Shown: in pieces, positions 54,047 to 55,324 of the stretch
How the letters are laid out: each line of letters begins with the position of its first letter
Position numbering within the stretch: the first letter of the stretch is position 1
Assembly: GCF_014925385.1 (NCBI RefSeq)
Contig: NZ_JACSDK010000015.1
Coordinates: forward strand, 62,001-126,000
Length of the DNA stretch: 64,000 nucleotides
Reading direction: 5' to 3'
Source of the DNA: Pelagibius marinus
GTDB taxonomy: Bacteria; Pseudomonadota; Alphaproteobacteria; Kiloniellales; Kiloniellaceae
Notes under the pieces: model-generated
The model's input: the letters and a program-made list of their open reading frames with translations, nothing else
Told to the model about the DNA's origin: nothing
Database searches by the model: none
Made by a program: the position numbers and the translations under genes

Positions 54047-54316
54047 TTAGTGTTCCTCCTGCCCCAGGAGATCCTCCTCCAGGGCCTGGCGCCACTCGCC
54101 GAGCCAGCTCAGTTCGTCGAGGAACACCATCAGCTTCACGCAGAGCGCCACGGGCTGCGGGATCCGCGCTTTCCCGGAGGCCCAGCGCCGCACCGTCCGG
54201 TCGTTCACCTTTAGTTCCCGCGACAAGGCGGTTTGCCAGCGCCCGGCCCCATAAAGGCGGGTGCAGAGCTCCCGCAGCTGCTCGGCGGACATCTCGTCTT
54301 CGTCGTCTGCCACCAT
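54047..54316 (-). CDS. small helix-turn-helix protein
   Basis: 89 residues from ATG 54316, preceded by GGAGGGA. Residues about 10-50 hold a helix-turn-helix, LCTRLYGAGRWQTALSRELKVNDRTVRRWASGKARIP, of the type seen in small alphaproteobacterial XRE/Cro-like proteins. An acidic, Trp-containing helix and QEEH tail follow. Four operator-like boxes and a candidate sRNA gene lie immediately upstream in the divergent region, so it probably controls itself and perhaps that RNA; this is inference from position. It converges on the polyprenyl synthase gene. Confidence 0.75.
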   Translation of the reverse strand: MVADDEDEMSAEQLRELCTRLYGAGRWQTALSRELKVNDRTVRRWASGKARIPQPVALCVKLMVFLDELSWLGEWRQALEEDLLGQEEH

Positions 54317-54365
54317 GGAAATTTTCCCTCCAACGACCTCGGCGCCGGTTCGACCTGCGAAGAGG

Positions 54366-54506
54366 CTAGGGCATTTTAGCCAATGACGCAAGGCGATTCG
54401 GGCATTTTGTCCAGCCTTTCAGCGCTGGATTGGCTATTATGCCCTAATTTTCGGTACAGAATTGACCAGCTAAGACCATATCAGGCTATATTGCCCTATT
54501 TTTCGG
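54366..54506. promoter_or_regulatory. cluster of four operator-like boxes
   Basis: Consensus GGCTAWWATGCCCTA. Direct copies start at 54432 and 54484, agree at 20 of 23 positions when extended rightwards through TTTTCGG, and are 52 bases apart, about five helical turns. Two inverted copies lie at 54366-54380 and 54397-54411, 31 bases apart. The array fills the gap between the small helix-turn-helix gene and the sRNA promoter. The boxes contain TATTAT or TATATT, and TTGACC at 54462-54467 lies 19 bases before the second copy, so one or more could instead be promoter elements. Confidence 0.7.
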
Positions 54507-54557: not shown

Positions 54558-54586
54558 TTGACTGGCGCCCTGGTCCTGTGTATATT
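54558..54586 (+). promoter_or_regulatory. sigma70-type promoter of the candidate sRNA
   Basis: TTGACT (54558-54563) and TATATT (54581-54586) are separated by exactly 17 bases. Transcription would start around 54592-54594. Confidence 0.75.
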
Positions 54587-54592
54587 CTAATC

Positions 54593-54730
54593 ATCGTTCG
54601 GGCACAGAGACAAACCCATATCGCATTCCTGATCTAAGTACTCCGCATCGCATCTTTTGTCTCTTACTTGAAGCCGACCGACATCGCATATTCAAGAATT
54701 GGGGGTCGATTTATTCGACCCCCTTTTTTT
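54593..54730 (+). ncRNA. candidate small RNA with three repeated loop heptamers
   Basis: About 138 bases from the predicted start to the end of the terminator, with no convincing reading frame. Stem 1 is AGAGACAAA (54606-54614) with TTTGTCTCT (54656-54664), its 41-base loop holding ATCGCAT at 54620-54626 and 54647-54653. Stem 2 is CTTGAA (54667-54672) with TTCAAG (54691-54696), its loop holding a third ATCGCAT at 54683-54689. Stem 3 is the terminator. Three identical unpaired heptamers look like multiple target- or protein-binding sites. No known RNA family is recognised. Confidence 0.7.
54701..54730 (+). terminator. strong rho-independent terminator
   Basis: GGGGGTCGA (54701-54709) pairs with TCGACCCCC (54715-54723) around a 5-base loop and is followed by seven T. 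No protein gene lies upstream on this strand within 690 bases, which implies it ends a small RNA. Confidence 0.93.
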
Positions 54731-54820
54731 GACCTGACGGTGGGAAATACAGCGGCTTTCGTCCGGCAAACGTTTCATCCCCCTGGCACGGCCAGGCGAC
54801 GACAGGTGAGGACATAGGTA

Positions 54821-55324
54821 ATGACCAACCTTTCTGAGACCGTGACCCGGGACCGGCCGCCGCAGAAGGTGCTGATCGGGGCCCGCCTGACGGTGGAGAC
54901 ACTGCGGCCGATCCTCGAGGCCCACGCCCGCTACCGCGCCGGGCGCGCCGACGGCCGCCGGGCGGTGCTGCTGCGCTGCGACCTCAGCGGCCTGGATCTC
55001 TGCGGGACGGATTTGAGCGGCGCCGATCTGGTCGAATGTGACTTCGAGGGCTGCAACCTGACCGGCGCCCGCTTCGAGGAAGCCACGCTGAGCGGCTCGC
55101 GCTTCGTCGACAGCCTGCTGAACGCGGCCCGCTTCGCCGGCGCCGACCTGGCGCGCGCCGACTTCCATATGGCCGACCTGCGCGGCAGCGACCTCAGCGA
55201 GGCCAATCTGGCGGAAGCACGCCTGGAGACGGCGGCCCTGGGCACCAGCCCGGAATCGGGCCTGCCGACCACCATCGACACCCGGGTTCTCGACCGCGTC
55301 ATGGCCCGGCGCTGGCGCCACTAG
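54821..55324 (+). CDS. pentapeptide-repeat protein
   Basis: 167 residues. Residues about 50-140 contain A(D/N)Lxx-type pentapeptide repeats (CDLSGLDLCGTDLSGADLVE, then GADLARADFHMADLRGSDL), which fold as a right-handed beta helix. An N-terminal helical part (LTVETLRPILEAHARY) and a short C-terminal helical tail flank it. Some pentapeptide proteins mimic DNA and protect gyrase; nothing specific shows that here. It follows the sRNA terminator by about 90 bases and has its own leader. Confidence 0.88.
   Translation: MTNLSETVTRDRPPQKVLIGARLTVETLRPILEAHARYRAGRADGRRAVLLRCDLSGLDLCGTDLSGADLVECDFEGCNLTGARFEEATLSGSRFVDSLLNAARFAGADLARADFHMADLRGSDLSEANLAEARLETAALGTSPESGLPTTIDTRVLDRVMARRWRH

Follow-up and report, generated by a model that had tools for sequence, protein, structure and literature searches.

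The window, that is, the whole stretch of 64,000 nucleotides of Pelagibius marinus DNA that was analysed, carries a short element with its own promoter and terminator, located between a small divergent gene for a helix-turn-helix-like protein and a gene encoding a pentapeptide-repeat protein. The element was compared in eight genomes of the Pelagibius clade, namely that of the window (G000) and seven further genomes of its genus (G001–G007). The features of the locus, in window coordinates, are as follows:

54047 to 54316, minus strand: gene for the small, divergent helix-turn-helix-like protein (ATG at 54316 assumed; a longer TTG frame runs from 54391), with an orthologue in 8/8 genomes
54367 to 54381, minus strand: operator-like repeat GGCTAAAATGCCCTA, with one mismatch to the pattern
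54432 to 54446, plus strand: operator-like repeat GGCTATTATGCCCTA
54484 to 54498, plus strand: operator-like repeat GGCTATATTGCCCTA
54558 to 54586, plus strand: sigma-70-type promoter of the RNA, TTGACT-17-TATATT, 10 of 12 consensus bases; counterpart in all eight orthologues (10–11 of 12, spacer 17)
54593 to 54730, plus strand: predicted RNA of about 138 nt, its 5' end assumed to lie 7 nt past the −10 box
54606 to 54614, plus strand: 5' arm of stem P1, AGAGACAAA
54620 to 54626, plus strand: first copy of ATCGCAT, found in G000, G004 and G005 only (3/8)
54627 to 54634, plus strand: loop segment UCCUGAUC, invariant in 8/8
54644 to 54652, plus strand: loop segment CGCAUCGCA, invariant in 8/8 and containing most of the second ATCGCAT copy (54647–54653)
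54656 to 54664, plus strand: 3' arm of stem P1, TTTGTCTCT
54667 to 54696, plus strand: second stem-loop of a preliminary description, CTTGAA/TTCAAG (arms 54667–54672 and 54691–54696); same stem in G000 and G004 only
54683 to 54689, plus strand: third copy of ATCGCAT (third motif), its letters partly varied among genomes and its GCA 32–34 nt past the CGCAUCGCA segment in 8/8
54701 to 54730, plus strand: intrinsic terminator, a 9-bp stem (54701–54723) and seven T; stem counterpart in 8/8
54821 to 55324, plus strand: pentapeptide-repeat protein gene (167 aa), with an orthologue of 56–89% identity directly downstream in all seven relatives

The promoter, the terminator and the three copies of ATCGCAT (starting at 54620, 54647 and 54683) were all found where the preliminary description of this DNA had placed them. 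Between 54000 and 55500 there are two promoter-like sites, against a mean of 0.4 in shuffled sequences, and one terminator-like site, against a mean of 1.3, so that the terminator count by itself is not unusual. Seven of the nine pairs of the terminator stem are G-C. The fold predicted for the 141-nt stretch beats those of shuffled sequences (z −3.0; 2 of 200 equally good), and the RNA region forms a GC-poor island of 46–48% G+C, compared with 67–72% in the adjoining genes. Owing to the near-palindromic stem, the RNA models give a low score on the minus strand of the terminator (54701–54732) as well; model R1 gave such weak minus-strand matches over it in four genomes of the genus. By eye, no T run follows the stem on that strand. 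A promoter within the third motif (GCATATTC) was also weighed by eye and no −35 partner was seen.

A single full-length copy of the RNA was recovered with model R1 in each of the eight genomes of the genus (E 1e-29 or better). The −10 box and the end of the T run are 141–144 nt apart in all of them, giving predicted RNAs of 135–138 nt, and the loop core UCCUGAUCY-N7-YCGCAUCGCA is retained throughout. The letters invariant in 8/8 genomes are TCCTGATC and, 9 nt further on, CGCATCGCA. Outside the genus, the other 15 genomes of the family gave weak matches in six cases (E 0.006–0.09), and the nine matches at E≤0.01 in an order set of 61 genomes corresponded to the eight of the genus and G008. The latter, the best match outside the genus and the only one of the six family matches to be inspected, proved to be a terminator in the space separating two convergent ORFs, in a neighbourhood that is not similar. 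Model R2 gave one match at E≤0.001 in a class set of 385 genomes, in the window's own genome; this set is an even sample with strict filters from which the other genomes of the genus were presumably not drawn. Finally, the loop pattern occurred in 13 records of a collection of 84,980 species, from which the window's own genome and records close to it may be missing. Six of them belong to the Pelagibius clade and are full-length model matches; the seven remaining ones are unrelated, and the model match there spans little beyond the pattern itself. No convincing copy outside the genus was found among the 15 family, 61 order and 385 class genomes or in the 84,980-species collection. As judged from these sequence searches, the RNA is so far specific to the genus Pelagibius.

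Stem P1 (54606–54614/54656–54664) encloses the first and second heptamer copies. Its arms differ by genome, being of the GAGACAAA type in G000, G004 and G005, GCACTGAAGA in G006 and G001, GAGAGATC in G002 and AGAGACTG in G003, with a poor stem of 5 bp in G007. When compared with shuffled arms, P1 exceeded expectation at p<0.05 in six of the eight genomes (p 0.009 in G000, 0.012 in G005, 0.002 in G006, 0.001 in G001, 0.03 in G002 and 0.018 in G003); G004 (p 0.104) and G007 (p 0.541) missed this level. In the hand-registered alignment A4 of eight sequences, whose register leans to P1 and in which relatives are counted repeatedly, 85% of the P1 cells are paired and both sides have changed in 8 of the 10 pairs. 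With the same hand register, the covariation score of P1 was 0.402, compared with 0.152 in shuffles (none of 500 reaching it) and with 0.132 or less when the stem was slid. Additionally, the further pair types numbered 14 against 11.6, an ordinary value that was reached by 54 of 500 shuffles. The independent changes in P1 are few since G006 and G001 have arms in common. In alignments A2 and A3, where P1 is misregistered, the signal was weaker (pairing in 65.6% of the P1 cells; a covariation score of 0.176 against 0.092), and RNAalifold on the plain alignment A2 recovered the terminator alone. In the terminator stem 98.6% of cells are paired over the eight genomes, with one compensated pair, in G002. 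The search in relatives for compensatory changes in two stems, which the preliminary description had proposed, found such changes in P1; the second stem is not conserved.

These data bear on the possibility that the element has no function as an RNA, its conservation reflecting DNA sites or slow divergence of a neighbourhood that is indeed syntenic. We consider this highly improbable, given the compensated stem changes, the presence of invariant loop segments beside variable ones and the conservation of both promoter and terminator. The proposal of a small-RNA gene is well supported by the comparison, since all eight genomes have the promoter, the covarying stem, the invariant loop and the terminator at a length that hardly varies, and the short conserved RNA gene very probably encodes a real regulatory RNA, as far as comparison of sequences can indicate.

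The preliminary description had further considered that two stems display three identical heptamers in unpaired loops. The first stem is conserved and holds copies 1 and 2. However, the second one exists as such only in G000 and G004 (6 bp; p 0.013 and 0.008, respectively) and is not part of the minimum-energy fold of the 141 nt. It is absent from G005, and the best stems at this position in the other five genomes are at chance level (p 0.17–0.70). Similarly, the three heptamers are present in the window but the threefold repeat is restricted to three of the eight genomes, and two of the positions are conserved. Copy 2 falls within the invariant CGCATCGCA, and the third motif reads TCGCAT in five genomes and TTGCAT, CTGCAT or TCGCAC in one each. 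Some heptamer was found three times in 77 of 20,000 single-base shuffles of the 141 nt and in 132 of 1825 sampled 141-nt stretches of the window (the 20 stretches shown being GC-rich), and the latter frequency means that the triple would not stand alone. ATCGCAT is not enriched across the whole window either (7 observed, 7.36 expected). By itself, the heptamer triple is not strong evidence, whereas the conservation of the element is. One heptamer in three loops is a trait of part of the genus; what is common to the genus is one long composite loop together with the third motif.

A function suggested by such repeats is titration, in which the repeated (A)UCGCAU would offer binding sites for several molecules of an RNA-binding protein and keep it away from mRNAs, in the manner of CsrB-type RNAs. 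The three copies in G000, G004 and G005 and the two motif positions with near-fixed spacing (32–34 nt) in all eight genomes are consistent with this possibility, which we nevertheless regard as very unlikely: copy 1 is missing in five of the eight genomes, copy 3 varies in three and the second stem is not conserved. Moreover, UCCUGAUC, which is equally invariant, lies outside the repeat, and the third motif is predicted to be mostly paired in G006 and G001 (mean unpaired probability 0.32). The preliminary view of a single heptamer, repeated three times, as a device for titration or for pairing with many mRNAs is weak, in view of the conservation of only two positions, the lack of conservation of the second stem and the fact that the invariant part is a longer composite loop that includes UCCUGAUC.

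The coding potential of the element was also studied. In agreement with the preliminary description, which placed no protein gene between promoter and terminator, no ORF with a start codon and at least 6 aa common to the eight orthologues was found. A coding leader was rejected: the frame CCT GAT CTA ... is open through the second half of the RNA in 8/8 genomes and has no usual start codon at a common place. The spacing of the conserved motifs shifts by single bases (32, 33, 34), and consequently the frame is not maintained between them. The commonest start was also discarded. It is a TTG at the base of the terminator hairpin in six of the eight genomes, and the frame that it opens runs across this hairpin, yielding peptides between 12 and at least 100 aa long. 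At gathering scores, an Rfam scan of the window yielded one tRNA only, leaving the RNA element without a family. A permissive Rfam scan of the region returned suhB, mir-541, L20 leader and others, all far below their cut-offs and none of them at the RNA in the seven orthologues. Among the matches listed in literature searches on Pelagibius, alphaproteobacterial sRNAs, pentapeptide-repeat attenuation and repeated-loop sRNAs, no description of this RNA was found by title or start of abstract, and by the same measure none of the Pelagibius papers listed is a study of RNA.

The surroundings of the RNA are retained in the genus. A polyprenyl synthase gene and the divergent helix-turn-helix-like gene are located upstream in 8/8 genomes, and rhodanese and kinase genes follow the pentapeptide-repeat gene in five of the eight, two of the stretches ending early at contig ends. 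The helix-turn-helix-like protein is 71–94% identical in the seven relatives and gave a match above cut-off in neither Pfam nor NCBIfam. The pentapeptide-repeat protein has a distant likeness to MfpA, Qnr and Alr5209, below every NCBIfam cut-off; MfpA and Qnr, both of this fold class, bind gyrase. The region that separates the helix-turn-helix-like gene from the RNA (window 54360–54500) holds inverted operator-like repeats, GGCTATNNTGCCCTA and less exact copies, with a distance of 52 bp between two of them. Exact GGCYATWWTGCCCTA occurs at eight places over the eight genomes (spread over seven of them), all at the RNA locus; when one mismatch was allowed, six of ten places were at this locus, with 0–2 per genome for the backward control. 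In G011, which belongs to another genus, a relative of the helix-turn-helix-like protein (55% identical) is found with repeats that are similar by eye and a pentapeptide-repeat gene that is divergent and longer; the gene context is a different one (L172:1621–3412). Neither an RNA model match above 6 bits nor a nearby forward terminator was detected at that module. As G011 has the module without the RNA, the regulator, operators and pentapeptide-repeat protein may constitute a module older than the RNA, to judge by this sequence comparison.

The T run of the RNA ends 35–90 nt before the start of the co-directed pentapeptide-repeat gene over the eight genomes. Since in the window it ends 90 nt 5' of this gene, which is orthologous in 8/8, a terminated leader, which the preliminary description had left out of consideration, has to be taken as a serious alternative. 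According to this explanation the element would be a cis-acting transcription attenuator: the RNA would be only a leader, a signal (protein, RNA or other) acting on the loop would decide between stop and read-through, and the short RNA would be a by-product. The order of promoter, RNA, terminator, gap and orthologous gene is the same in all eight genomes, and a scan of the gap with the sigma-70-type consensus identified no promoter-like site with at least 9 of 12 consensus bases in any of them; G006 and G001 have two sites with 8 of 12, which overlap the terminator. Attenuators have been sought elsewhere through terminators that recur ahead of orthologous genes in different species (PMC2965389), and the arrangement in Pelagibius agrees with this footprint. 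The strict position ahead of one gene suits a leader acting in cis equally. In addition, when the 3' arm of the terminator is left out, its 5' arm is predicted to pair with one and the same upstream GRCY segment in six of the eight genomes (G000, G004, G005, G001, G007 and G003), forming a possible antiterminator. However, this has about 4–7 pairs, was predicted in neither G006 nor G002 and does not track the terminator change of G002. The predominance of G-C pairs in the terminator stem also speaks against attenuation. The upstream genes are retained in 8/8 genomes as well, so that inheritance of the gene order could by itself account for the linkage, and G011 has the remainder of the module without recognisable RNA or forward terminator. 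All in all, we hold attenuation alone to be possible, as a close second choice.

Targets of the loop were sought with its perfect complement GATGCGATGCG, longer than the ATGCGAT of the preliminary proposal, and no conserved sense target was found. This sequence occurs at 34 places, 2–7 per genome, including the opposite strand of the RNA gene itself. Loci were available for 30 of the 34 places and five of them were the RNA gene; among the other 25, the only ones common to genomes were two pairs in antisense frames, both from the closely related G006 and G001; no gene in sense orientation was shared. The pattern GATCAGGA-N2-12-ATG gave 63–121 occurrences per genome and its reversed control 0–1, a control of doubtful value because the reversed pattern holds CTAG, a sequence that is rare in bacteria. 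Around the start of the pentapeptide-repeat gene, pairing with the loop was not above that of shuffled loops in any of the eight genomes (p 0.23–0.69). With the coding part of this gene, none of 100 shuffles was as good in G002, and the other seven genomes gave 0.08–0.69.

The explanation that we favour, with a probability of about 0.45, is a genus-specific sRNA that acts via its loop and doubles as the leader of the pentapeptide-repeat gene. RNA polymerase would start at the conserved promoter and stop at the GC-rich terminator, releasing an RNA predicted to be about 136 nt long. Stem P1 would present a loop of about 40 nt, with the invariant core as its putative working surface. This loop would most likely base-pair with mRNAs: UCCUGAUC has UCCU, the complement of the Shine-Dalgarno AGGA, and CGCAUCGCA may serve as a second pairing surface. 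Transcription of the pentapeptide-repeat gene probably depends on read-through of the terminator, given that no good promoter was found between them, and the RNA would also be its leader. The helix-turn-helix-like protein encoded on the opposite strand probably binds the operator-like repeats and would regulate its own gene and perhaps the RNA unit. This sRNA was placed slightly ahead of the attenuator for two reasons: the RNA keeps its length, promoter and loop although it lies at varying distances from the gene, and an antiterminator with covariation was not found. The two explanations may also be true at once, a trans-acting sRNA being at the same time a terminated leader. A more elaborate combination, which we see as rather unlikely, would be a two-way switch added in Pelagibius to the older module, in which a protein or RNA bound to the loop of the terminated leader controls read-through and the released RNA acts in trans by the same loop.

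The locus provides a structured bacterial RNA with good comparative support and without an Rfam match at gathering score. It also points to control of a pentapeptide-repeat protein by RNA, and the exact loop sequence is now at hand for seeking targets or protein partners.

Among known systems, the titration RNAs CsrB and RsmZ likewise repeat a motif within one RNA. Their motifs are GGA, whereas that of Pelagibius is ATCGCAT, only partly conserved, with two conserved positions and a second stem that is not. The suhB/mmgR family (RF00519) gave a weak match of 20.4 bits over the terminator and the preceding 35 nt; its gathering score is 41, and none of the seven orthologues was matched at E up to 10. 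Transcription attenuators and terminated leaders have in common with this locus a conserved RNA and terminator shortly 5' of an orthologous gene, but neither a covarying antiterminator, nor a common leader ORF, which is a feature of one class of attenuators only, nor a leader or riboswitch family at gathering score was found for the Pelagibius RNA.

Two further groups of RNAs were also compared. SmelA075 and SmelA099, multi-loop anti-Shine-Dalgarno RNAs, show several loops, a repeated motif and variable stems. They differ in carrying the motif CCUCCUCCC in three or four hairpins, according to the passages that describe them (PMC3927594), while the Pelagibius RNA has one conserved stem and another motif. 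EcpR1 (SmelC291/Sra33) of Sinorhizobium meliloti represses gcrA through a loop of similar appearance and lies between divK-pleD and rpmG (PMC4414408); the Pelagibius RNA is located elsewhere. Pairing with gcrA leaders in the manner of EcpR1 was not seen in Pelagibius (8 leaders in 8 genomes, 16 tests, start codons approximate; lowest p 0.105). Nor is the EcpR1 loop motif given there, UCCGCCGCAUCU, matched by the Pelagibius RNA, which has UCCGCAUCGCAUCU in the window and UUCGCAUCGCA in G002, G003 and G007; the likeness, judged by eye, extends over a few letters. EcpR1 is likewise an own transcription unit with a terminator (PMC4414408, PMC3927594), and it pairs with its targets via an unpaired loop that is strongly conserved and carried by a stem (PMC4414408).
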